Source: a virus
Reading direction: 5' to 3' (one strand)
Length of the DNA: 21,582 nucleotides
Virus record (IMG/VR): IMGVR_UViG_3300048672_001369
Location: 1-21,582 of that record
The translations under genes were made by a program, and so were the position numbers. The notes under the pieces were generated by a model, which made no database searches, was not told the origin of the DNA, and worked only from the letters and a program-made list of their open reading frames with translations. Each line of letters starts with the position of its first letter. Position 1 is the first letter of the stretch. This document shows positions 1,831-17,852 of the stretch, in pieces.

Positions 1831-1998
1831 ATGGCATCCCTGCGCAGAACAGATGAGGAAATTCGGGAGCGAATCGCCATGTGGCAGCAAGCGATTGAGG
1901 AGGAGATGGAGAACGGGGGAAGCGGTGGAGAGGATTGGTGGCGCGAGGCGAAGACGGCCATTAGGGAACTCTCCTGGGTGCTCGGGGAGGCGGGGTGA
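1831..1998 (+). CDS. Small helical protein, hypothetical
   Basis: This 55-residue charged protein starts two bases after the clamp stop and overlaps the next ATG (TGATG at 1996-2000). The pattern RTDEEIRERI, a glycine-rich middle (NGGSGGEDWW) and the ending AIRELSWVLGEAG resemble many small phage and bacterial proteins that begin RT.EEIR.RI and end in L.WVLGE. No function is known to me for that group. It is probably two short helices. Being squeezed between clamp and exonuclease genes without gaps supports it as real. Confidence 0.6.
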   Translation: MASLRRTDEEIRERIAMWQQAIEEEMENGGSGGEDWWREAKTAIRELSWVLGEAG

Positions 1999-4418
1999 TG
2001 TTCGGGCTCTTATGCGATGATCGTGTCGTTGTTCGTCCTGGTGCTCGACGGCCTAATAGTAATATAGCCAAGCGTAGTAGGATGGGATCTAATGGTTCAT
2101 CTCGGATACTGGATTGTGCGTCTTGTGGATTGTACAGGGACTGCCATTCACCGAAGATGGCACCGACCGGTGAAGGCCGAAGGGGGATTTTGGTTCTGGC
2201 GGAGTCGCCAGGTCGTACTGAGGACGAGCAGGGCGTACAGCTGATCGGGGAGGCCGGGCAGCTTCTGCGACAGATTCTGAGAGACTATGATATTGACCTT
2301 GACCGCGATTGCCGGAAGACGAACGCCCTATCGTGTCGACCGGAGGGGAACCGTACCCCGACCAGCAGGGAGATCGATGCGTGCAGGACCAGAGTCTGGG
2401 AAGAGATCTGCGCATTCCAGCCAAGGTTGATTCTTCTGTTGGGGAACGCCGCAGTGGAGAGCTTCTTGGGGCATCGATGGAAGAAGGATCTCGGTGGGAT
2501 CAACAAGTGGCGCGGATTTCCTATCCCGGATCGGGAGACGAAGTGCTGGGTCGTGGCGACCTATCATCCGAGCTTCTTGCTTCGGTCAAAGGGGAATCCT
2601 GCGGTCGAGAGAGTCTTTCGAGAAGACATTGAATTGGCGATTGGATACGCGGACAGACCCTTCCCGGAGATGGGTGGGGAAGAGGAGCGGATTGAGGTCA
2701 TTCAGGATGCTGGACGGGCGGTCGAGCGGCTGAAGGGGTTATATCAAACGGTCACTCAGGCCAAAGAGGGGTTGATCGCATTTGATTACGAGACGACCGG
2801 GCTGAAGCCCTACAATAAGGGGCATCGGATCGTCTGTTGTGGGGTCGCTTACGATAGTACCGGGGGATCCGGTCCATTTGTTCATGATCAGGCTTTCGTA
2901 TTTGAGATGGCAGAGGATTCGACTCTTCGTCTGTGGTGGCGACGTATTTTGACTTCGGCAAGGATTCGGAAGACCGCGCATAATTGTCTTCATGCGCGAA
3001 GTTTTGTGCTTATGGCGGATGGTACGAAACGAATGATTTCACAGCTTGTAAATTCGAAAAGTCAGGCACTGGTAAAGTCTTTTAATGTGGGCGTTGGTAA
3101 AATTGAGCATAAGCAAATTGTGAATTGGTATAGGCAGATTGATCCCGATGTGCGATGGATGAAGATAATAACGGAGCAATCAATTAATGGGCATAGGGGA
3201 AGTCAGTCTCACGCGCTTACGAACGACCATGAAGTATATCTGAAAAACAAGGGAATGACTCGGGTTGATTCTGTGCGAATTGGGGATGAGATTCTCCTTG
3301 CTAAACCAGGGCTTTCTTTTATACAAGAACAGATGATTCGGGGAAGTTTGCTTGGTGATGCTTCCTTGGTATTACAGAGGGGGAGTAAGGCTAAGAATCC
3401 TCATTTTCAGGTTGGTCATTGTGAGAAGCAGAAGGAGTATTTGGAGTGGAAGCATTTGATATTAGAGAATGTATCGTCCCGCATTACTGCAAGACGGTGG
3501 GATAAGGGATTTAGCAATCCGAATTCTTTATTTTATACATTTCGAACAAAGTCACTTAGTGATTTGTCTTCTGTGTATGATGAGTTATATGTTGGGGGAA
3601 AGAAAAGGGTTTCAAAAGCATATTTGTCGAAGTTAACACCATTGAGTCTTGCTGTGTGGTATATGGATGATGGTTCTATTTGTCGGCATAGAACAAGCTC
3701 TACTGTACTGTTACATACGTATGGTCTTTCCGAGGCAGAAATAAATGATGTGATAAATCATTTTAAGTCGGTTTATAACATATGTTGGAAGAAAAGACGT
3801 CATAGTTCCTGTGATGGATGGTCACTTTGTGTTGGAAAGAAGGCTGGTGGGGCTAGATTTATTCGAATGATTGCTGGGTATGTACATCCTGCTATGCGGT
3901 ATAAGATTCCATCGTCTTGGTGCGAGGAAGTCTCTTCTTTTGATGATGGAATAATAAAATCTGCGGATATTTATAAGGATCACCTTTATTCGAAGGTGAT
4001 TGACGTTATTCCAACTAAAATGAAGATCTCCAAAAATCTCCGTTACTGTATTGAGGTGGAGGACAATCATAATTTTTTTACAACACTGGGGCTTGTGAAG
4101 AATTGTAAGTTCGAGGACACGTGGACCAATGTTATTCTCGGGCATCCGGTGAAGGGGTGGCAGTGGTGCTCGATGCAGGCCGCGCACGTGCTGGATAATC
4201 GGCCAGATATTACGGGATTGAAGTTCCAGGCGTATGCCAATTTTGGTATTGCGGACTATGCGTCTGAGATTGTGCCGTTTCTTCAGTCAGACGGAAGTAG
4301 TGACAACGCGGCGAATCAGATCGATCGCGCTCCGCTTCGGGATCTCATGCAGTATTGTGGCATGGACGCGCTGCTGCAGCTTCGCTTGGCTAGAAAGCAG
4401 ATGGGGCAGATCAGATGA
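1998..4418 (+). CDS. UDG-like domain fused to DnaQ-like 3'-5' exonuclease, intein-containing
   Basis: The precursor has 806 residues, or 433 after intein removal. Residues 37-200 are a family 4-like uracil-DNA glycosylase fold: four cysteines placed for a 4Fe-4S cluster (C40, C43, C113, C129), the segment ESPGRTED (69-76), N109 before the cluster cysteine, and the YHPS motif (189-192). Residues 255 onward are a proofreading exonuclease of the DNA polymerase I type: Exo I DYETTG (D263, E265), Exo II HN-CKFED interrupted by the intein at residue 330, and Exo III YCGMDA (D790). No polymerase domain follows; that is a separate gene at 4625. The start is ATG 1998 (TGATG coupling); GTG 1995 is possible. 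The UDG plus exonuclease order resembles the N-terminal part of SPO1-type phage polymerases, as I recall them. The glycosylase may be inactive because the usual aromatic residue after the first motif is a leucine (L82). Confidence 0.85.
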   Translation: MFGLLCDDRVVVRPGARRPNSNIAKRSRMGSNGSSRILDCASCGLYRDCHSPKMAPTGEGRRGILVLAESPGRTEDEQGVQLIGEAGQLLRQILRDYDIDLDRDCRKTNALSCRPEGNRTPTSREIDACRTRVWEEICAFQPRLILLLGNAAVESFLGHRWKKDLGGINKWRGFPIPDRETKCWVVATYHPSFLLRSKGNPAVERVFREDIELAIGYADRPFPEMGGEEERIEVIQDAGRAVERLKGLYQTVTQAKEGLIAFDYETTGLKPYNKGHRIVCCGVAYDSTGGSGPFVHDQAFVFEMAEDSTLRLWWRRILTSARIRKTAHNCLHARSFVLMADGTKRMISQLVNSKSQALVKSFNVGVGKIEHKQIVNWYRQIDPDVRWMKIITEQSINGHRGSQSHALTNDHEVYLKNKGMTRVDSVRIGDEILLAKPGLSFIQEQMIRGSLLGDASLVLQRGSKAKNPHFQVGHCEKQKEYLEWKHLILENVSSRITARRWDKGFSNPNSLFYTFRTKSLSDLSSVYDELYVGGKKRVSKAYLSKLTPLSLAVWYMDDGSICRHRTSSTVLLHTYGLSEAEINDVINHFKSVYNICWKKRRHSSCDGWSLCVGKKAGGARFIRMIAGYVHPAMRYKIPSSWCEEVSSFDDGIIKSADIYKDHLYSKVIDVIPTKMKISKNLRYCIEVEDNHNFFTTLGLVKNCKFEDTWTNVILGHPVKGWQWCSMQAAHVLDNRPDITGLKFQAYANFGIADYASEIVPFLQSDGSSDNAANQIDRAPLRDLMQYCGMDALLQLRLARKQMGQIR
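2985..4103 (+). mobile_element. LAGLIDADG intein inserted in Exo II of the exonuclease
   Basis: A 373-residue intein (precursor residues 330-702) starts with cysteine and is followed by cysteine as the first C-extein residue. Block A is CLHARSFVLMADG, block B is LTNDHEVY with the TxxH pattern, and block F/G is IEVEDNHNFFTTLGLVKN. Two LAGLIDADG homing endonuclease motifs are visible, RGSLLGDASL (Asp at intein residue 125) and LAVWYMDDGSI (second Asp at 229), so it is a full mini-exonuclease-hosted homing element with both acidic residues kept. The penultimate residue is lysine, not the usual histidine. Composition is clearly AT-richer than the extein (line 3541: 22 of 60 G+C; line 2461: 33 of 60), consistent with separate acquisition. 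Removing it restores an uninterrupted HNCKFED motif. Confidence 0.93.
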
Positions 4419-4628: not shown

Positions 4629-5980
4629 TATCCATTCAGCCTGATACGAAGGCCGCCTATCGTTTGATGCATGACGGTATCTTGGCGCTTGCGGAGATTG
4701 AGCGCACTGGGATGCGAATAGATGCGGATTACTGTAGGCGGCAGATTGACATTTTGGACCGTCGTGTCGAGCGGTTGATCAAGGCGCTGCATAAGACAGA
4801 GGATATATTGGAGTGGAAGCAGATTTATAAGCAGAAGTTCAACCTAGAGTCTCCGCGTCAGCTTGCGGACTACCTGTATAAGCATAAAAGGCTGATCCCG
4901 ATGAAAGTGACTGAGAAGGGCAATGCCTCGGTCGATGATGAATCGTTGAAGACCATCAAAGAGCCATTTGTCCAGGATTTGCTGCGCATTCGTAGGCTGA
5001 AGAAGACTCGTGATACCTATTTGAAGGGGATCTTATCAGAGGTTTCTGAGGATGGTCTGTTGCATCCGTTCTTTAATCTACACACAGTCAAAACATTTCG
5101 CTCCAGTGCACAGAGTCCGAATTTCCAGAATTTACCCATCCGGGATAAAGAGATGGGCAAGATTATCCGTCAAGCATTTATTCCGAGACAGGGATATCGG
5201 TTTGGTGGTGTGGACTACGCCGCAATCGAAGTCAAAATTGCTGCGTGCTATCACCATGATCAGACGATGCTAGAGTATATTCGCAATCCGTCTAGCGATA
5301 TGCATCGGGATATGGCGATGGAGTGTTACAAGCTTCGGCAGGATCAGGTGACGAAAATATCTAGGTACTGCGCTAAGAACAAGTTTGTTTTCCCGCAGTT
5401 TTACGGGGACTGGTATAAGAATTGCGCGGTGAGTCTCTGGTCTGCAATCGATGAGATGGAGCTCCAGACGGCGGACGGCGTTCCTATGCGAGAGCATCTG
5501 CGAACACAAAATATCAAAAACTATAATAGGTTTGAGGACCATATTCAGCGGGTGGAGAATCGGTTCTGGAATGATCGGTTCTCGGTCTACGCGGAGTGGA
5601 AGCGTCAATGGATTAAGGAATACGAGCGGAATGGATATTTCCACACGCTGACCGGGTTTACTTGCTCAGGGGTGATGGGTAGGAATGATGTGGTGAATTA
5701 CCCGGTCCAGGGATCAGCATTTCACTGTCTACTCTGGTCGCTGATCCGATTGCACGACTGGCTTAAGCAGGAGAAGCTTCAGACGAAGATCGTCGGTCAA
5801 ATCCATGATGAAATTACGCTGGACGTTTTTGAGGAGGAGATGGACGTTGTGCTGAGTCGTGCGAAGGAGATCATGTGCGAGGAGATTCGGCGGGAGTGGC
5901 CGTGGATCGTCGTTCCGTTGGATGTGGAGTCGTCATTCGCCCCGGTAGATCAGAGTTGGCATGAAAAGGAGGTCGTATAA
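4625..5980 (+). CDS. Family A DNA polymerase, polymerase domain only
   Basis: This 451-residue protein covers thumb, palm and fingers of a DNA polymerase I-type enzyme and lacks a 3'-5' exonuclease domain. Visible motifs are TFRSS...PNFQNLP before the palm, motif A VDYAAIEVKIA (D197), motif B RYCAKNKFVFPQFYG (R247, K251, Y260, G261), and motif C IHDEI (H394, D395, E396). Motif B has the KN.FVFP.FYG form, one residue longer than the E. coli O-helix pattern, which I associate with phage enzymes. With the upstream UDG-exonuclease it adds up to 884 residues, the size of a single-chain phage polymerase. The start overlaps the 20-residue leader by ATGA. Confidence 0.92.
   Translation: MISIQPDTKAAYRLMHDGILALAEIERTGMRIDADYCRRQIDILDRRVERLIKALHKTEDILEWKQIYKQKFNLESPRQLADYLYKHKRLIPMKVTEKGNASVDDESLKTIKEPFVQDLLRIRRLKKTRDTYLKGILSEVSEDGLLHPFFNLHTVKTFRSSAQSPNFQNLPIRDKEMGKIIRQAFIPRQGYRFGGVDYAAIEVKIAACYHHDQTMLEYIRNPSSDMHRDMAMECYKLRQDQVTKISRYCAKNKFVFPQFYGDWYKNCAVSLWSAIDEMELQTADGVPMREHLRTQNIKNYNRFEDHIQRVENRFWNDRFSVYAEWKRQWIKEYERNGYFHTLTGFTCSGVMGRNDVVNYPVQGSAFHCLLWSLIRLHDWLKQEKLQTKIVGQIHDEITLDVFEEEMDVVLSRAKEIMCEEIRREWPWIVVPLDVESSFAPVDQSWHEKEVV
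5966..5972 (+). promoter_or_regulatory. Strong Shine-Dalgarno for the ParB-domain gene
   Basis: AAGGAGG sits at the end of the polymerase gene and 12 bases before ATG 5985. The only earlier in-frame ATG (5961) overlaps this element, so 5985 is the better start. Spacing is on the long side. Confidence 0.5.
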
Positions 5981-5984
5981 ATTT

Positions 5985-7217
5985 ATGAAAGGGTTAGGTC
6001 TTATTGATACTGCGATGATTCAAGAAGAGAAACAAGATAATGATGATCTTTCTTTTTTCATTTCTTGGCAAGCGAAAGAAATAGTAGATTCTTGCGCTGT
6101 ATTTATTAAGAAGATACATAGTTTATCTATTATGGAGCGGATTGAAACGCTTAATGAACTACGAAGAATGCTGCATGATGAAAGTCCTTTTTATGGTGAA
6201 CCAGTAGATTGTGTTCAGTGGATACATGGGGAACAGCTTTACGCCAATGATTATAATCCGAACACTGTAGCACCACCAGAAATGAAGTTATTAGAACGGT
6301 CTATTATAGAGGACGGGTATACTCAGCCGATTGTGGCTTGGATTAAAGAAAAGAGATTTGAGGTCATTGATGGCTTTCATCGTAGTAGGGTAGGAAAAGA
6401 AAGTATCGAAATAAAGAATCGGATACATGGTTATCTTCCTGTTACTGTTGTTAATGAACATAGACTTGATCGAGGGGATCGAATAGCTTCTACAATTAGG
6501 CATAATCGAGCAAGGGGAAAGCATCGGGTTGAGGCAATGTCGGATATTGTTGTTGAATTAAAGCGACGGAATTGGACAGATGAGAGAATTTGTCGGGAAT
6601 TGGGAATGGATCAGGATGAAGTCCTAAGACTATGCCAGATTACTGGACTTGCAGAATTATTTTCTGATCAGGAATTTTCTAAGTCTTGGGATGTTGAGGG
6701 AAATGTGTCTGAAATAGACTTTGAGGAATTATCGGATGATAGTTTGACTTATGGAGACGAAGTTTCTTCGTTTCGTACAGTCAATACCAGTGATGAGACT
6801 AGGATTTTTCATACTTATGAAAAATGGGAATGTTATAAGTCGGGATTTTATGCACATACTAAAGATGGTATGACGAAAACCCAATGTGAGGAAGCTTATC
6901 GGGATTTTTTGTTGGATATTCCGAGATTTACTCAAGCATTGGAGTGTGTTGTTATAGAATGGAAATACTCTTGTGAACACTATTTGACGAATAGTGCTAT
7001 GAATCGGATTGCTTGGCTTGGGCAAGCTTCTGTTTGTTATGCTCTTGGTATTCCATCGATTTTTCGTAGTGGATTTTGGCTTCTTACAGAGGAACAGCAG
7101 AAGAAGGCTAATGAGGCTGCTCTTATATATTTGAATAAGTGGATGATGGCAAATGGACGAGAGTCAGTAACAATGGAGGTAGCTTATTCTGGTGAACGAC
7201 AAATGGAGATTTATTGA
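5985..7217 (+). CDS. ParB-like (IbrB-type) protein with extra C-terminal domain
   Basis: The protein has 410 residues. Residues 75-180 carry a ParB/sulfiredoxin-type domain: TQPIVAW, then DGFHRSR (D129-R135) and a second box with IRHNRARGKH. A helix-turn-helix-like stretch WTDERICRELG follows. Residues from about 270 form a second, aromatic-rich domain with KWECYKSGFY, SCEHYLTN, NRIAWLGQAS and IPSIFRSGF, which I do not recognise by name. ParB-domain proteins paired with a PAPS-reductase-like partner are known as IbrB/IbrA; IbrAB were first described as regulators in an E. coli prophage. The next gene is that partner and overlaps by one base. Composition is AT-rich (line 6241: 24 of 60 G+C) between GC-rich replication genes, suggesting insertion as a cassette. 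Activity could be nucleotide binding, nuclease or transcriptional control. Confidence 0.7.
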   Translation: MKGLGLIDTAMIQEEKQDNDDLSFFISWQAKEIVDSCAVFIKKIHSLSIMERIETLNELRRMLHDESPFYGEPVDCVQWIHGEQLYANDYNPNTVAPPEMKLLERSIIEDGYTQPIVAWIKEKRFEVIDGFHRSRVGKESIEIKNRIHGYLPVTVVNEHRLDRGDRIASTIRHNRARGKHRVEAMSDIVVELKRRNWTDERICRELGMDQDEVLRLCQITGLAELFSDQEFSKSWDVEGNVSEIDFEELSDDSLTYGDEVSSFRTVNTSDETRIFHTYEKWECYKSGFYAHTKDGMTKTQCEEAYRDFLLDIPRFTQALECVVIEWKYSCEHYLTNSAMNRIAWLGQASVCYALGIPSIFRSGFWLLTEEQQKKANEAALIYLNKWMMANGRESVTMEVAYSGERQMEIY

Positions 7218-8431
7218 TGGGAATTAAGCGATATCGAAATGTTAATGTATTGGAGGCTAGTCGACAGAGAATTGCTGTTGTATTTGATAATTTTGAGCGA
7301 ATTTATGTCGCATTATCTGGTGGAAAAGATAGTACTGTTTTACTTCATTTAGTTATGGAACAGGCGATAGCTAGGAATCAGAAAGTTGGTGTGATGTTTA
7401 TTGATTTTGAGGCTCAATATACGGATACAATTTCTCATATTCATAAAATGTTTGAACATTACCGTAAATATATTGATCCTCATTGGATATGCCTTCCAAT
7501 GTTACTTCGGAATGCTGTAACGAATTATGAGCCTCGATGGAAATGCTGGGATCCTGACAAGCAGGATATTTGGATTAGGGAAAAGCCGGAAAATTGTCGG
7601 ACTGAAGAGGATTATCCTTTTGCAATTCCTGGTATGGAGTTTGAGGAATTTATCGTGTTATTTGGACAGTGGTATGGGCAAGGAAAGAAAACCGCGGGAT
7701 TTATTGGGATTCGTGCACAAGAAAGTTTGCATCGGTATTGTGCAGTAGCAACATGGGAAAAACGAAATTTAACATTTAATGGGTATCGATGGACTACAAA
7801 AATCGTAGATAATGTCTATAACATTTATCCGATCTATGATTGGTTAACTGAGGATATTTGGAGATTCCATGCAGTATATCCTAATATGTCCCACAATTTG
7901 ATCTATGACAAAATGCAGATGGCTGGAGTACCTTTAAGTCATCAACGTCTTTGTCAGCCCTTCGGAGATGATCAGCGACGAGGTTTGTGGTTATACCATA
8001 TTTTAGAGCCTCAAACGTGGTTTCGTCTTGTATCCCGAGTAAACGGGGTGAATTCTGGAGCTTTATATATTGAGGAAAAGGGAAATATTACGGGATATAA
8101 TAAGATCACAAAACCAGATCAGCATACTTGGAGAAGCTTCTGTAATCTACTTTTGCAAACAATGCCGAAGAAAACAAGAGAGCATTATATTATACGATTT
8201 AAGAAGTTTATTTACGGATGGCATCAGCGCGGCTATTCAGTAATTCCAGAGGAAGCCCCGCTTGAGCTTGAAAGTAAATGTTGGGCTCCCTCGTGGAGAA
8301 GAATGTGCAAGGTATTGCTTCGTAATGATTGGTGGTGTAAGGGACTCGGGCAAGCTCAACCGAAGAGTGAGGCTTATCAACGATTTAAGGAGTTAAAACG
8401 CAGTGGAAAAGTTGGAAAGATGGTTTTATGA
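7217..8431 (+). CDS. PP-loop PAPS-reductase-like protein, IbrA type (DUF3440-like)
   Basis: This 404-residue protein has a clear PP-loop, LSGGKDSTVLLH (S34-S39 core), followed by VMFIDFEAQY. Such enzymes bind ATP and adenylate a substrate, as in PAPS reductase, DndC and tRNA-modifying enzymes. Further motifs are GIRAQESLHR, IYPIYDWLTEDIWRF and a C-terminal KCWAPSWRRMCKVLLRNDW...CKGLG, which I associate with the DUF3440 extension of IbrA. It overlaps the ParB gene (TGATG) with GGAG eight bases before ATG 7217; TTG 7214 is an alternative. It is strongly AT-rich (line 7441: 18 of 60). Likely roles are sulfur transfer or a nucleic acid modification together with the ParB partner, but the substrate cannot be read from the sequence. 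Confidence 0.78.
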   Translation: MGIKRYRNVNVLEASRQRIAVVFDNFERIYVALSGGKDSTVLLHLVMEQAIARNQKVGVMFIDFEAQYTDTISHIHKMFEHYRKYIDPHWICLPMLLRNAVTNYEPRWKCWDPDKQDIWIREKPENCRTEEDYPFAIPGMEFEEFIVLFGQWYGQGKKTAGFIGIRAQESLHRYCAVATWEKRNLTFNGYRWTTKIVDNVYNIYPIYDWLTEDIWRFHAVYPNMSHNLIYDKMQMAGVPLSHQRLCQPFGDDQRRGLWLYHILEPQTWFRLVSRVNGVNSGALYIEEKGNITGYNKITKPDQHTWRSFCNLLLQTMPKKTREHYIIRFKKFIYGWHQRGYSVIPEEAPLELESKCWAPSWRRMCKVLLRNDWWCKGLGQAQPKSEAYQRFKELKRSGKVGKMVL

Positions 8432-12140: not shown

Positions 12141-13259
12141 ATGGGGTGGGACGTTGTAGGTAAGAAGAAAGAAGAGCAATCTGAGGCCAGGCTCCAGGAT
12201 GTGACAGAGGACATCCTGGAGCATACTAAGCAGGAAGATCCCCGGCGTCCAAAGACGCTGCTGATTCCGACTGGCTCAGTATTGCTAAATCTCTCTTGTT
12301 CCGACCATATCGATGGCGGATGGGGGGCGGGGAAGATCGCTAATCTGATCGGGGATAGCTCTTCTGGCAAGACGCTACTAGCTCTGTCGATGTTTGCCGA
12401 GTGCGCCCAGCGATCGGAATTTGACGGGTATGACTTCATTTACGACGATGTCGAGCAGGCGTGCGAGTTTGATTTTGGCAAGCTGTTCGGAAGCAGAGTT
12501 GGGGAGCGTATCCAGGCTCCGCAATATGACGGAGACTCCTCGCTCTATAGCGACACCACGCAGCAGTTCCACGCGAACGTGTTTTCTGCCATCGAGACGG
12601 GAAGGCCGTTCATCTATGTGTTGGATAGTTTTGACGCCTTGACGAGCAGCGAGGAGTTGAATCGGGCGGAGGAGTCCGTCAAGGCGACTCGGGAAGGCAA
12701 AGAGCTGAAGGGTAGCTACCGGATGGAGAAGCCCAAGTTCGCCAGCGAGATGTTGCGCCAGATCAAGGCGAGGATTCGGGAGACGCAGTCCTTTCTGCTC
12801 ATCATCTCTCAGACACGGGATAACATCGATCCCATGTCCTTCGAGAAGAAGACGCGGAGTGGCGGACGGGCACTGCGATTTTACTGCTCCCACGAGGTGT
12901 GGATGGCGCTGGCCGGGAAGATCAAGAAGAAAGACCGCGTGATTGGGAGTAACGTGAAGGTCAAGGTGACGAAGAACAAGCTGACCGGCAAGCAGCGGGA
13001 GGTGATCTTCCCGATCTACTATGACTATGGCGTTGATGATTTAGAGTCGTGCATTGATTTTCTGGTGGACGAAGGGTATTGGCAGAAGAAGGGGGATAAG
13101 GTTGTTGCGAATGACTTGGGGCTGGAGGGATCTCGGCGCAAGCTGATCGCGGACATTGAGGACAAAGCATTGTCTCTTCAGCTATTTCAGTCCGTGCGGA
13201 TCTGTTGGGGACAGATTGAGGAATCCCTGAAGCTCGAAAGGAAGCCGAAATATGAGTGA
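12141..13259 (+). CDS. RecA/UvsX-type recombinase
   Basis: A 372-residue RecA-fold ATPase. Walker A is GDSSSGKT (71-78), after the SVLLNL...GG...G.I.NLIG lead-in typical of RecA/UvsX. A Walker B-like strand FIYVLDSFDAL follows, then a segment with IISQTRDNID and TRSGGRALRFY, as in the DNA-binding loop region of RecA relatives, and TKNKLTGKQREV. It would form filaments on ssDNA for strand exchange and recombination-dependent replication. The C-terminus is extended with a charged tail. SSB and mediator genes precede it. RadA-like ATPase is a less likely alternative. Confidence 0.85.
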   Translation: MGWDVVGKKKEEQSEARLQDVTEDILEHTKQEDPRRPKTLLIPTGSVLLNLSCSDHIDGGWGAGKIANLIGDSSSGKTLLALSMFAECAQRSEFDGYDFIYDDVEQACEFDFGKLFGSRVGERIQAPQYDGDSSLYSDTTQQFHANVFSAIETGRPFIYVLDSFDALTSSEELNRAEESVKATREGKELKGSYRMEKPKFASEMLRQIKARIRETQSFLLIISQTRDNIDPMSFEKKTRSGGRALRFYCSHEVWMALAGKIKKKDRVIGSNVKVKVTKNKLTGKQREVIFPIYYDYGVDDLESCIDFLVDEGYWQKKGDKVVANDLGLEGSRRKLIADIEDKALSLQLFQSVRICWGQIEESLKLERKPKYE

Positions 13260-13338: not shown

Positions 13339-13530
13339 ATGGCACATTACCATCCCTGTATGAAGTATAGAGCACAGGTCTACTGTGCTATTTGCGAGCA
13401 GCGTTTGAATTTCAACTTAACGCATCATTGGGCAAAGGAGCGCTGCGGTCCGTTATGTAATAGTTGCGCTGAGAAGCAGAATGCTGTATTGGCTGGGCAT
13501 GATGGCTGGCCGTGTGAGGATCGGGAATGA
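13339..13530 (+). CDS. Small zinc-finger protein
   Basis: A 63-residue protein with CAIC (16-19) and CNSC about 21 residues later, plus several histidines (THHW), fitting a treble-clef or HNH-like zinc finger, but the catalytic pattern of an HNH nuclease is not convincing. It overlaps the following exonuclease by ATGA. ATG 13339 has little ribosome-binding signal; ATG 13360 is an alternative start. Function unknown. Confidence 0.6.
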   Translation: MAHYHPCMKYRAQVYCAICEQRLNFNLTHHWAKERCGPLCNSCAEKQNAVLAGHDGWPCEDRE

Positions 13531-14429
13531 TTCTTGCTGATCGGGTTCGGGCCAATTCCCAGTTGGCTCTGCTGCTGGACTGTAACGGGATCTGTCACGC
13601 GCTTTCTCATACGGTAGGGGAGTTATCCCATAATGGGATGGAGACTGGGATCATCTTCGGTTTTCTGCTGCAACTGTTTACGCTGCAGAAGCGGTTCCAT
13701 CCGCATCGATGGGTATTTGCTTGGGATAGTCGACTCTCATTACGCAAGCACATTTATTCCCAGTACAAGGGGAACCGTGCGATCAAGCGCAGTCCGCAGG
13801 AGGAAGACCTTCGTAGCTCGGTTTTCCGGCAGTTCGATCTGCTTCGGATAAACATTTTACCCTCCTTGGGTTTTGATTGCATATTATACGTGAATGGGTA
13901 TGAAGCGGACGATCTTTTGGCTTGTGCAGTAGGACAGATAGGCGGGAAGAAAGTCATTGTTTCTCAAGACCATGATCTCTACCAGCTTCTTGGGGAGCAC
14001 TGCACGATGTATAACTCTAGGACGCGAAGTCTCTTTACCGAGACGGATTTTCGCACGCAGTACGGGATTAACCCGGAACAGTGGGTAGAGGTCAAGGCTA
14101 TTGCGGGGTGTCCAGGCGACAACGTGCAGGGCATTCTTCACGTGGGAGAGGCTACGGCTATCAAGTATCTGACTGGGCAATTGTCGTATAAGAGCAAAAC
14201 GTATGCCTCCATACGACAGCAATGGTGGGATCAGGTGCAGCTTAACAGGAGATTAGTGCGGCTGCCGTTTGAGGGCTGTCAGGCTGCAACAAAGGGATCT
14301 TTTTCTGATGGCTATTCTTCCTCCTTGTCGGAGGAGGGGTTTCGTCGCGTGTGCCGGGAACACGGGTTTGAGTCTTTCCTGGCAAAAGAGAAGTACGAGG
14401 AGTGGGGAAAGTTATTCAGATGGAAATGA
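13527..14429 (+). CDS. FEN/Pol I-type 5'-3' exonuclease
   Basis: A 300-residue 5' nuclease of the PIN-like FEN superfamily, equivalent to the N-terminal domain of DNA polymerase I and to T4 RNase H. It would remove RNA primers and flaps. Motifs are LLLDCNG (D18), WVFAWDS, LRKHIYSQYKGNR, NGYEADDLLA, VSQDHDLYQLL, and the helix-hairpin-helix region AIAGCPGDNVQGI.HVGEATA. The acidic metal ligands are all present. The polymerase at 4625 lacks this domain, so here the functions of Pol I are spread over three genes. ATGA overlap with the zinc-finger gene supports the start. Confidence 0.9.
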   Translation: MILADRVRANSQLALLLDCNGICHALSHTVGELSHNGMETGIIFGFLLQLFTLQKRFHPHRWVFAWDSRLSLRKHIYSQYKGNRAIKRSPQEEDLRSSVFRQFDLLRINILPSLGFDCILYVNGYEADDLLACAVGQIGGKKVIVSQDHDLYQLLGEHCTMYNSRTRSLFTETDFRTQYGINPEQWVEVKAIAGCPGDNVQGILHVGEATAIKYLTGQLSYKSKTYASIRQQWWDQVQLNRRLVRLPFEGCQAATKGSFSDGYSSSLSEEGFRRVCREHGFESFLAKEKYEEWGKLFRWK

Positions 14430-14606: not shown

Positions 14607-15653
14607 ATGTTTAAGTCTATAGTCCTCCAGAATTTTCAGTCACACAAGGACACCACGCTGGAATTTGATCCAGGCGTGAATGTCATCATAGGAGATAGCG
14701 ACTCAGGGAAGACTGCGATTCTACGCGCGCTGACTTGGGTGCTGACGAATCGTCCGACAGGGGAGGCTTTTCGGAGATATGGAACATCTGAGACTCGGGT
14801 AAAGGTGGAGACTATTGAAGGGTCTGTTGAGCGGCTGCGTGCTGACAACGGCAACTTATATTGGGTGGGTGTGGAACGGTTGGCTGCCATAGGGACGTCC
14901 GTTCCGGAGTCTGTGCTGAAGCTGCTTAAGATGGATCCGGAGGTTAATATCCAGCGGCAACTTGATGCTCCATTCCTGCTATCTTGCTCGCCAGGAGAGG
15001 TTGCCCAGCGGTTGAATGCCTCCGTCGGGTTGGATGAGATTGATGTCGGATTAGTAAATGTCGCAAGGCGCGTTCGACAAGGTCAGCTCATATTTGAGCA
15101 GGCAGAGACGGAGTGTGCGGCTGTATCGAAGCTGGTAGACTCCTTTGCCTATCTTACTGAGATGGAGCAGGCGGTTTCCCAACTAGAGCAGCAGTCACGA
15201 GATTTGGATATTATGGAATTGCAGATCGCTAGGCTGACTGATATTTTGGGAGAGGTTCAGCAGAGTCAACTGGAGATGGATTCTTTGCCTGCTGTGGATA
15301 TGCTTCTTCTGCTACTGAGAACGGCGCAGGAGCAGCTTCAAAACTATAATAAGGTATATGAGCAATGTCAGAAGCTATCGGTTCTGATCAAGGATGTTGC
15401 GAAGGCTAATAAGACTTTGGATGATATGCCGGATATGATTGGATTACTTCGTATTGTCTCTGGAGTAGAATATAATCTTGAACGGCTGGGCGAGTATACA
15501 AAATCAAAACAGGGTATGGAGAGTACATTGGTCAGTTATAGTGAGATTAGCCAGAACTTGCGTTCTGTAACCGAGACACTTACGGAGCGAGAGAGGAGAC
15601 TCCGCAAGGAATTTCCGCTGATTTGTCCCCTGTGCGGTAGGAAGGGGAAGTAA
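14607..15653 (+). CDS. SbcC/Rad50-like ATPase, N-terminal half ending at the zinc hook
   Basis: A 348-residue protein. It begins with an SMC/Rad50-type ATPase lobe: FQSHKDTTLEFDPGVNVIIG, Walker A GDSDSGKT (29-36) and a Q-loop-like LDAPFLLS. From about residue 150 it is a coiled coil rich in Q, E and L. It ends with FPLICPLCGRKGK, where CPLC (340-343) is the Rad50 zinc-hook CxxC. No signature motif, Walker B or descending coil follows. Those parts appear in the separate gene at 17241. Together with the nuclease at 15856 it should act in processing DNA ends, like T4 gp46/gp47. The start has only a weak ribosome-binding site. Confidence 0.85.
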   Translation: MFKSIVLQNFQSHKDTTLEFDPGVNVIIGDSDSGKTAILRALTWVLTNRPTGEAFRRYGTSETRVKVETIEGSVERLRADNGNLYWVGVERLAAIGTSVPESVLKLLKMDPEVNIQRQLDAPFLLSCSPGEVAQRLNASVGLDEIDVGLVNVARRVRQGQLIFEQAETECAAVSKLVDSFAYLTEMEQAVSQLEQQSRDLDIMELQIARLTDILGEVQQSQLEMDSLPAVDMLLLLLRTAQEQLQNYNKVYEQCQKLSVLIKDVAKANKTLDDMPDMIGLLRIVSGVEYNLERLGEYTKSKQGMESTLVSYSEISQNLRSVTETLTERERRLRKEFPLICPLCGRKGK

Positions 15654-15655
15654 GC

Positions 15656-15859
15656 ATGAGAGCAAAGATGTGTTTGGAGCCCGATGAAATTCTTGTAGTG
15701 CGGTTTTCTGGAGCCATTAGTTCTGAAGAAGCCACGCATACTGCTGAGGTGATTCGGCAAATGCTTCCGAAAACCAAGTTGTTGGTTGGTTCTCATGATG
15801 TGGGATTTAGTACTATCTCGCAAAAGATTTTGTGCGAGGAGTGTCGGGCCAACATATGA
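15656..15859 (+). CDS. Small hypothetical protein
   Basis: A 67-residue protein starting two bases after the ATPase stop and overlapping the nuclease start by ATGA. The sequence LEPDEILVVRFSGAISSEEA, then LLVGSHDVGFSTIS, suggests a small alpha/beta fold vaguely like short phage proteins of unknown role. It ends with CEEC. Its place between the two SbcCD-like genes suggests use in the same complex, but only by position. Confidence 0.55.
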   Translation: MRAKMCLEPDEILVVRFSGAISSEEATHTAEVIRQMLPKTKLLVGSHDVGFSTISQKILCEECRANI

Positions 15860-16785
15860 ACGTTTCTGCGATCTTGACATCTGATCTGCATCTCCGGGAG
15901 GATACGCCGGTCTGTCGGACAGATGATTTTCAGAAGACGCTTCAGAGGAAGTTGGATTGGCTCTCGGAGTTGCAGCAGAAATATGCTGGCGTTCCCATTT
16001 TGGATGCAGGAGATTTATTGCATCATTGGAAGCCCTCCCCGGCGCTTCTGTCTTGGGTGATGTTGAATCTTCCTAGACCGTTTATCACAGTACCTGGGAA
16101 TCACGACATGCCGCAGCATAATCTAGATCTGTTGCCAACTTCTGGATTATATACCTTGTCGGTGAGCGAGAGCATACAGATGCTAACCGGGGAGTTCCCG
16201 CTGTGGGATGATGCGTTACCATTTGATATTTATGCGATTCCGTGGGGAGCGGAAGTTTTGCATCCAGCTTGTCCGAAGCCAAGGAAATATCGTAAGAAAG
16301 TTCTGTTGTATCACGGGTTAACTTATGTTGGCTTGGAGCCTTATCCTGGTGCAGAGAAGGAGGGACTCACAGCGAGTTGCTTGTTGGAGCGATTCCCGCA
16401 ATTTGACCTGATTGTAAGTGGACACTATCACAGAGGGTTTGCAATTTGTTCTAAGGATCAAAAGCGGATGCTTGCTAATCCTGGAGGCATCGCTAGGATG
16501 ACGGCGGATGAGATTGATCGGCAACCGTATGTCTACCTATGGGATGCGGAGCGGAATGTGATAACTCCTGTTGCGGTGCCGATTGAACAGGGCGTTGTCA
16601 GGCGAGATCATATCATTCAGCAAGAGGAGCGAAGTGGCAGGATGGATGCGTTTCTGTCACGGATGAGCCAGGACGTGGAGATTCAGCTCTCCTTCCGAGA
16701 GAATTTGCAGCGATATATGGTGCAGAATACGATATCTGCCACAGTGGAGCAGGAGATCTGGAAATGCCTAGAAGTCCAGAAGTAG
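15856..16785 (+). CDS. SbcD/Mre11-like metallophosphoesterase nuclease
   Basis: A 309-residue calcineurin-type phosphoesterase with all metal-binding motifs: SDLHL (D10, H12), AGDLLHHW (D53), PGNHD (N82, H83, D84), LYHG (H153) and SGHYHRG (H190, H192). It would be the nuclease partner of the split Rad50-like ATPase, equivalent to T4 gp47. The start ATG 15856 is preferred over an in-frame upstream start because it overlaps the previous stop by ATGA and begins right at the first strand. The C-terminal 60 residues are helical and could bind the ATPase coiled coil. Confidence 0.88.
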   Translation: MNVSAILTSDLHLREDTPVCRTDDFQKTLQRKLDWLSELQQKYAGVPILDAGDLLHHWKPSPALLSWVMLNLPRPFITVPGNHDMPQHNLDLLPTSGLYTLSVSESIQMLTGEFPLWDDALPFDIYAIPWGAEVLHPACPKPRKYRKKVLLYHGLTYVGLEPYPGAEKEGLTASCLLERFPQFDLIVSGHYHRGFAICSKDQKRMLANPGGIARMTADEIDRQPYVYLWDAERNVITPVAVPIEQGVVRRDHIIQQEERSGRMDAFLSRMSQDVEIQLSFRENLQRYMVQNTISATVEQEIWKCLEVQK

Positions 16786-16958
16786 AGCAGTTCGTCATGG
16801 AATACGGGGAGCAGTATCGAGGTTTCATTGAGAATGCCTTGGAGTTCCTTGATTCTGTGGAGATTCTTGATTCTCTGGAAAAGGAAAATTTAGGGGAGCC
16901 CATAGATCGGTCGAAGTGTATCGAAGATCTATTGCGTTTCTCGGCTGGAGGATATTGA
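16764..16958 (+). CDS. Small acidic helical protein
   Basis: A 64-residue acidic protein overlapping the nuclease gene by 22 bases. AGGAG at 16750-16754 is nine bases before its ATG. The sequence (QFVMEYGEQYRGFIENALEFLDSVEIL) predicts two helices. I do not recognise it. It lies between the halves of the split ATPase, so may be part of that complex. Confidence 0.55.
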   Translation: MPRSPEVEQFVMEYGEQYRGFIENALEFLDSVEILDSLEKENLGEPIDRSKCIEDLLRFSAGGY

Positions 16959-17209
16959 TGGCAGATGATGCGGTAGTATTGGCGAATCAACTGTTGAACT
17001 TGAAGCGGCAGATTGAGGTGGATAAGGAGAAGAAAGCTCATTTAGAAGGTCAGCTTGCGTCGTTGATGTCCAGGCTTGAGAAGGAGTTTGCTTGTGCGAC
17101 AATTGAGGATGCGGAAGTAAAGGTAGCAAAGCTGAGCAAAGACATCGAGAAATTGACGGGGTTGGTGAGGGAGAAGATCACTGCTATTCAACAACAGTAT
17201 TCCGTGTGA
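16958..17209 (+). CDS. Coiled-coil protein between the split ATPase halves
   Basis: An 83-residue protein that is almost entirely heptad-like: LANQLLNLKRQIEVDKEKKAHLEGQL..., then IEDAEVKVAKLSKDIEKLTG. One cysteine (FACATIEDAE) sits between two helices, in a style seen in small phage proteins near SbcC-like genes (as I recall, G/A-C-x-x-I/L-E-E-A-E). ATG 16958 overlaps the previous stop and has GGAGG five bases upstream. It could supply the missing descending arm of the split Rad50-like coil; that is inference. Confidence 0.65.
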   Translation: MADDAVVLANQLLNLKRQIEVDKEKKAHLEGQLASLMSRLEKEFACATIEDAEVKVAKLSKDIEKLTGLVREKITAIQQQYSV

Positions 17210-17240
17210 GCTTAGAGTTTCTTGTCAAAGGATGATTTAG

Positions 17241-17852
17241 ATGCAGCAGATTATTAAAACACTCCGAGCGGATTTGGAGCAGCGTAAGGGACGGCTACTC
17301 CAGCTTCAGCAGCAGTTCGAGAAAGCGCAGGGAGAACGTAAGCAAGCCAAGCGGGCGCTATGGGCCTCTGAGCGGGCACAGGTGATCCTTCAGCAGGTAG
17401 CTCAGGCGACTCAGCAGGAGTTGGAGTATCGGGTGAGTGAGTTGGTAACGCTGGCGTTGTCCGGGGTGTTTCCAGATCCATACCAGTTTAAGTTGCGGTT
17501 TGTGGTTCGTCGGGGGAAGACTGAGGCGGACCTGCTGTTTCTGCGTGGGGAGCAGGAGATCGACCCGCTGTCTGCTTCTGGTGGGGGTGTCGTGGATGTA
17601 GCTGCGTTTGCGCTTCGTGTTGCCTTGTGGCGGCTGTCCAATGGGTTGCGTCCTGTCCTCATTTTGGATGAACCGGCGAAGTTTGTTAGTGCTAGTTTGA
17701 GGGAAAATGTTGGAAAGATGTTGAAAGAATTATCTGGGCGTTTGAAGTTACAGATAATTATGATCACTCATATCCAGGAATTTGCAGAGATTGCAGATAG
17801 AACATTCGAGGTCAGTAAGAAAGACGGGAGTAGTTCTGTGGAGGTTATATGA
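17241..17852 (+). CDS. SbcC/Rad50-like ATPase, C-terminal half
   Basis: A 203-residue protein with an N-terminal coiled coil (residues 1-65), followed by an ABC C-lobe: LSASGGGVVDVAAFALRVAL carries the signature motif (S113-G116), PVLILDEP is Walker B (D143, E144), FVSASL is the D-loop region, and IMITHIQEF is the H-loop (H177). It has no Walker A, so it must pair with the N-terminal half at 14607. The DEP form after Walker B instead of DEGFGSLD is common in phage versions, as I recall. The last bases overlap the next gene by ATGA. Confidence 0.88.
   Translation: MQQIIKTLRADLEQRKGRLLQLQQQFEKAQGERKQAKRALWASERAQVILQQVAQATQQELEYRVSELVTLALSGVFPDPYQFKLRFVVRRGKTEADLLFLRGEQEIDPLSASGGGVVDVAAFALRVALWRLSNGLRPVLILDEPAKFVSASLRENVGKMLKELSGRLKLQIIMITHIQEFAEIADRTFEVSKKDGSSSVEVI

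Follow-up and report, generated by a model that had tools for sequence, protein, structure and literature searches.

Rad50 and SbcC are usually viewed as one continuous coil that runs out to a zinc hook and back, yet the viral contig analysed here (21.6 kb, 21,582 nt; hereafter the window) encodes a Rad50/SbcC-like ATPase in two halves, the first of which ends five residues past the hook motif. Two questions follow: whether the separate chains make one enzyme, and what stands in place of the missing return path. The split ATPase lies within a replication and recombination module that includes clamp, polymerase A, clamp loader, RecA-like and FEN-type proteins, and its parts and nearest neighbours are:

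12141–13259, plus strand: RecA-like recombinase, same module (PF00154, E 3e-25)
13527–14429, plus strand: 5'-3' exonuclease (FEN-type), a neighbour in the recombination/replication module (PF02739, E 1e-23)
14607–15653, plus strand: N-half (N), comprising Rad50/SbcC lobe I, base helix, arm and terminal CPLC (AAA_23, E 4e-19)
15656–15859: 67-aa ORF inside the cassette
15856–16785, plus strand: SbcD/Mre11-type nuclease subunit (SbcD), 309 aa (Metallophos PF00149, E 1e-9)
16764–16958: acidic 64-aa ORF inside the cassette
16958–17209, plus strand: K, an 83-aa helix-turn-helix coiled-coil protein (family alignment)
17241–17852, plus strand: C-half (C), a heptad helix of about 55–60 residues followed by Rad50/SbcC lobe II (phrog_15167, E 5e-38)

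A Rad50/SbcC-like ATPase in two halves

The N-half (348 aa, ATG at 14607, stop at 15653) contains the Walker A and Q-loop of lobe I, and its Walker A sequence GDSDSGKT occupies, together with NIQRQLDAPFLL, invariant columns of the family alignment. Residues 1–179 align with lobe I of Rad50, SMC and RecF proteins (AF2 model, pLDDT 82; VIA-align), and helices are predicted at residues 142–179, 181–225 and 228–335. The N-half matches phrog_16465 in PHROGs (E 2e-33). Scores against NCBIfam equivalogs stay below the curated cut-offs: the best, a Rad50 model, reaches 51 bits (cut-off 700), and the SbcC model sbcc_Staph 14 bits (cut-off 920). The original prediction, that this half ends five residues after CPLC, is borne out by its C-terminus (CPLC-GRKGK), and the same end is found among its relatives, which finish at CPxC. 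N homologues with a full coil and a C-lobe, which would have counted against the prediction, were sought. Of 108 N homologues that are complete and stand alone, 106 finish near a CxxC, and the close single-chain forms that turned up were all armless. The CxxC motif of a zinc hook stands at the apex of the arm, where zinc binding is predicted. One locus (L050, 5398–6606) carries a hook variant, with CPIFDIPC replacing CPxC.

Lobe II resides in the C-half (203 aa), where the helix precedes the signature (ASGGG), Walker B (LILDEP) and H-loop (ITH); signature, Walker B, D-loop and H-loop are invariant columns in the alignment, and the protein matches solved Rad50 C-lobe structures (E 4e-15). PADLOC matches reflected generic ATPase similarity (the best for the C-half being mad3, 9e-15) and the locus has no defence context, so we rejected a reading as a defence system. 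SbcD retains all five metallophosphoesterase motifs (DLH, GDLLH, GNHD, HGLTY and GHYH); we take ATG 15856 as its start, with GTG at 15832 as a possible alternative.

Both in the window and across 110 distinct loci, each lobe has an ORF of its own, so the two are not joined by a long coil within one polypeptide. The mismatch in coil length that first drew attention to the locus is also real, the arm of the N-half measuring about 190 residues against about 55–60 helical residues in the C-half. SbcD, the acidic ORF and the 83-residue protein lie between the halves at the coordinates first proposed, and the 67-aa ORF had gone unmentioned. Neither the 67-aa nor the 64-aa ORF has relatives among the loci collected, and neither was counted as a part.

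K is a conserved third component

Of 110 distinct loci with both N and C (viral contigs, phage isolates and Bacillota genomes), 108 also have a K homologue, which places the split N/K/C arrangement far beyond chance. Gene order varies among the K-bearing loci (N-K-C in 47, N-SbcD-K-C in 32, SbcD-N-K-C in 24, N-K-C-SbcD in 5), and in each order counted K sits between N and C. Its start often overlaps the N or C gene or falls within a few bases of either, its length is 75–111 aa in the 48 loci measured, and a conserved turn marks the middle of the protein. K is thus a conserved third component, placed where a descending arm would be encoded.

Searches for K were specific. A profile built from phage sequences alone matched 89 Bacillota K ORFs against 3 other ORFs at E<1e-3, pointing to homology between phage and host forms as judged from coiled-coil sequences. 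Seven carrier genomes with coil-bearing forms each yielded a single match (E 1e-22 to 2e-29), and a genome-wide profile search found none in four genomes with canonical SbcC. No curated family for K exists in Pfam, PHROGs, NCBIfam or PADLOC; tblastn with K over phage records returned nothing meaningful, and comparison with solved structures gave only chance coiled-coil matches.

Three genomes encode a natural fusion, a single chain of about 700 residues in the order SbcD, lobe I, lobe II, which has neither arm nor CxxC nor K:

L182, 5652–7754, minus strand: fusion
L183, 4764–6818, plus strand: fusion
L184, 6583–8670, minus strand: fusion

No K was found elsewhere in these three genomes in a genome-wide search. 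Since K is absent together with the arm in the fusions and present in the carriers, it goes with the arm; K also stays beside N in genomes whose C now lies at a folD-rny locus. Together these observations are good evidence that K is a component of the arm-bearing form, and they uphold the proposal of a Rad50 built from separate chains with K as the third.

Two of the 110 loci lack a recognised K. In genome G095 (L111, 5717–5805), K has lost its start and most of its length to a 184-bp deletion, with N and C left open and intact; K may be dispensable there, and the deletion may be a real loss or an assembly error. The second is Microcystis phage Mvi-JY20, where a helical ORF of 95 aa stands in the expected position, beyond the reach of the profile.

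We also considered, and rejected, the idea that K duplicates one of the arm units: one N homologue resembles K, and the other arms score near the level of shuffled sequences. In that homologue, a phage N-half (L055, 5995–7041), residues 151–216 match the K profile (E 7e-8), and K and the arm base may have exchanged sequence.

The arm is built from 47-residue units

The arm of the N-half (window 15030–15615) is a tandem helical repeat of 47 residues in four units. Across homologues the number of units ranges from 3 to 7, with six usual in Bacillota, and arm lengths fall into clusters at 146, 193, 249, 296 and 343 residues, mostly in steps of 47; the span between Q-loop and hook is likewise quantised. 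The hydrophobic pattern of the arm recurs at lags of 47 and 94 with a local period of 3.36, whereas SMC-type coils of the same genomes mostly have a period of 3.5 with lags at multiples of seven; the helices of K and of the C-half follow the ordinary heptad pattern (3.5). In a modelled relative, the arm is broken into helices of 36–61 residues. A return strand matching the arm is absent, and the arm, as known from its sequence pattern, has a period of 3.36 rather than 3.5.

The original prediction was that K may complete the descending arm. On that reading K would be a detached segment which, with the C-half helix, runs antiparallel to the N arm as far as the hook. An ancestral single chain would follow the same order as the genes (N-K-C), K is lost together with the arm, and the shortest arms (146 aa) come close to the combined length of K (about 80) and the C helix (about 55–60), all of which would fit such a strand. 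However, arms extend up to 343 aa with K unchanged, and K length shows no relation to arm length (rho 0.006, p 0.97). Because K has about 80 residues while the arm spans 3–7 units, it cannot pair along the whole arm. The arm period also differs from that of K and C, the turn in the middle of K is conserved, and Microbacterium phage Magritte keeps a K-like gene though its N lacks CxxC. We therefore retain the part of the prediction that made K a third component, and consider its role as the partner strand of the arm unlikely.

Alternatively, N, C and SbcD may constitute the enzyme, with K as an accessory regulator outside the arm (perhaps a loading factor, an inhibitor or a link to RecA or SSB). 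That the armless fusions do without K, that N and C are intact in G095 although K is damaged, and that K belongs to no curated family would all agree with such a role. Yet K is missing exactly where the arm is missing, is present even in Magritte, where N, SbcD and C are scattered, and often starts inside the N or C gene or only a few bases away; on balance we judge an accessory role to be improbable.

A bolder reading makes the arm a modular rod of three to seven 47-residue units carried on the N chain alone, rather than an antiparallel coiled coil. Packed on itself or paired N to N, such a rod would end in a zinc hook and spring from a composite two-chain head with an obligate K; this form would stand in for SbcC in some of the Bacillota and is present in many phages. 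We put this forward tentatively, as a plausible picture that falls somewhat short of probable. Both odd and even unit counts occur, so an up-and-down bundle would shift the hook from tip to base, and a segmented rod, possibly with N paired to N, would be the more economical arrangement. As for K, its constant length suggests a constant position, which may be the neck, at the junction of the C-half helix with the N base, and is less likely to be the hook.

The halves probably act as one enzyme

The natural fusions of SbcD, N and C make it almost certain, as far as gene fusion can tell, that these three belong to one enzyme. The fusions themselves represent a minimal, armless Rad50-Mre11. A second line of evidence comes from structure prediction. 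For a relative whose three frames coincide, a read-through N-K-C translation was modelled with TAA and TAG read as Gln, the chains being linked artificially. This model matched whole Rad50, SMC and cohesin heads over residues 1–794 (Z 22–27, 300–410 residues in most rows), a fit that supports a composite head; with a pTM of 0.42, 12 rows, and neither contacts nor an error map, the model does not place K. The sequences themselves show the two half-heads and the nuclease, how conserved and specific K is, the repeat units of the arm and the fusion of SbcD, N and C, and the chain of evidence for a composite enzyme is strong. That the halves are instead decay products or independent half-ATPases, as public records annotating each alone (exonuclease; ATPase) might imply, is very improbable and contradicted by motifs intact and conserved in 110 loci, by the natural fusions and by the near-exclusion of canonical SbcC described below.

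Proposed mechanism

We consider it likely that the locus encodes a heteromeric DNA-end-processing enzyme of the SbcCD/Mre11-Rad50 type, in which N and C form one ABC head, CPxC forms the hook, the arm is a rod of 3–7 helical units, K occupies a constant site in the arm assembly and a RecA-type recombinase acts downstream. For complex formation, the site of K, the chemistry of the hook and the biological role we infer the following scheme. The N and C chains would join as one ABC-ATPase head, with Walker A and Q-loop contributed by N and signature and Walker B by C; two such heads would dimerise on ATP and drive SbcD, giving the complex a predicted ATP-dependent nuclease activity. The CPxC motifs at the ends of the N arms would make a zinc hook that holds the arms together, and K, as a short helix-turn-helix, would cap or clamp a constant part of the assembly, most likely the neck, rather than serve as a full-length descending strand. 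SbcD would dock its C-terminal helices on the arm base, a mode of binding established for Mre11-Rad50. Judging from gene order, the product may then pass to the RecA-like recombinase encoded next door.

The split form in phages and on bacterial chromosomes

The design is conserved from phages to bacterial chromosomes, including many Bacillota, where it often lies between recA and rny. Among phage isolates, Bacillus phage vB_BboS-125 has the same set of parts, and in Magritte they are scattered over the genome (the K-like gene being 245). In vB_BboS-125, N and K are separated by an inserted AP2-domain gene (L002, 7398–7970). A RecA homologue occurs within the analysed stretch of 50 phage loci, and on Bacillota chromosomes recA adjoins the cassette.

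Clostridia carry the cassette on the chromosome, and many genomes have the order cinA-recA-(recX)-SbcD-N-K-C-rny (names read from translations rather than from a family search). Five Clostridia (L109, L112, L114, L117 and L118) carry C alone between folD and rny; SbcD, N and K lie elsewhere, with K still adjoining N. C is carried by 21 of 291 Clostridia genomes and by 65 of 398 genomes of the phylum of genome G002. Canonical SbcC was found in one of 33 genomes with the split form, compared with 14 of 34 without it (Fisher p 2e-4, an optimistic value since the genomes are mutually related), and the split form seems to take the place of the usual SbcC on these chromosomes.

Relation to known systems

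With SbcCD and Mre11-Rad50 the split form shares the head fold and motifs, the SbcD/Mre11 partner, the CxxC hook and the recombination context; it differs in having separate N and C chains together with K, a hook at the end of a chain, and an arm of 47-residue units that has no matching return strand. SbcCD-like enzymes of Bacillota also include B. subtilis YhaN/YhaO, an ATPase and a nuclease, of which YhaN is a single chain. The N and C families correspond to phrog_16465 (exonuclease) and phrog_15167 (ATPase), entries that are linked neither to each other nor to SbcD or K and carry no mechanism. We found no description of a split Rad50/SbcC, of K or of the 47-residue arm in a literature search that was thin on subscription journals.

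Fusions of Mre11/Rad50 (SbcD/SbcC) were described by Yoshida et al. 2011 (PMC3175470), including A7KV18, a protein of Bacillus phage 0305phi8-36 and the second best viral fold match of the N-half in our window. In those proteins, as in the L182–L184 fusions, SbcD is joined to Rad50-like lobes; a separate C-half and K were unreported, and L182–L184 moreover lack arm and hook. The authors noted that one SbcC NTPase segment is missing in the Bacillus phage and Anaerostipes proteins (PMC3175470), an absence for which the split form would account.

The missing return path, the stepwise arm length and the retained third chain would allow the roles of arm and hook to be tested directly. The split form would also account for the loss of SbcC from many Bacillota, and would supply names and partners for proteins whose present annotation is hypothetical protein, exonuclease or ATPase.

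Elsewhere in the window, a uracil-DNA-glycosylase protein of 807 aa (1995–4418) contains an intein-like LAGLIDADG insert at about residues 340–715 (PF03161, E 3e-31), and positions 5961–8431 encode a possibly ParB-like protein (418 aa, with no Pfam match) beside a PAPS-reductase/DUF3440 protein.
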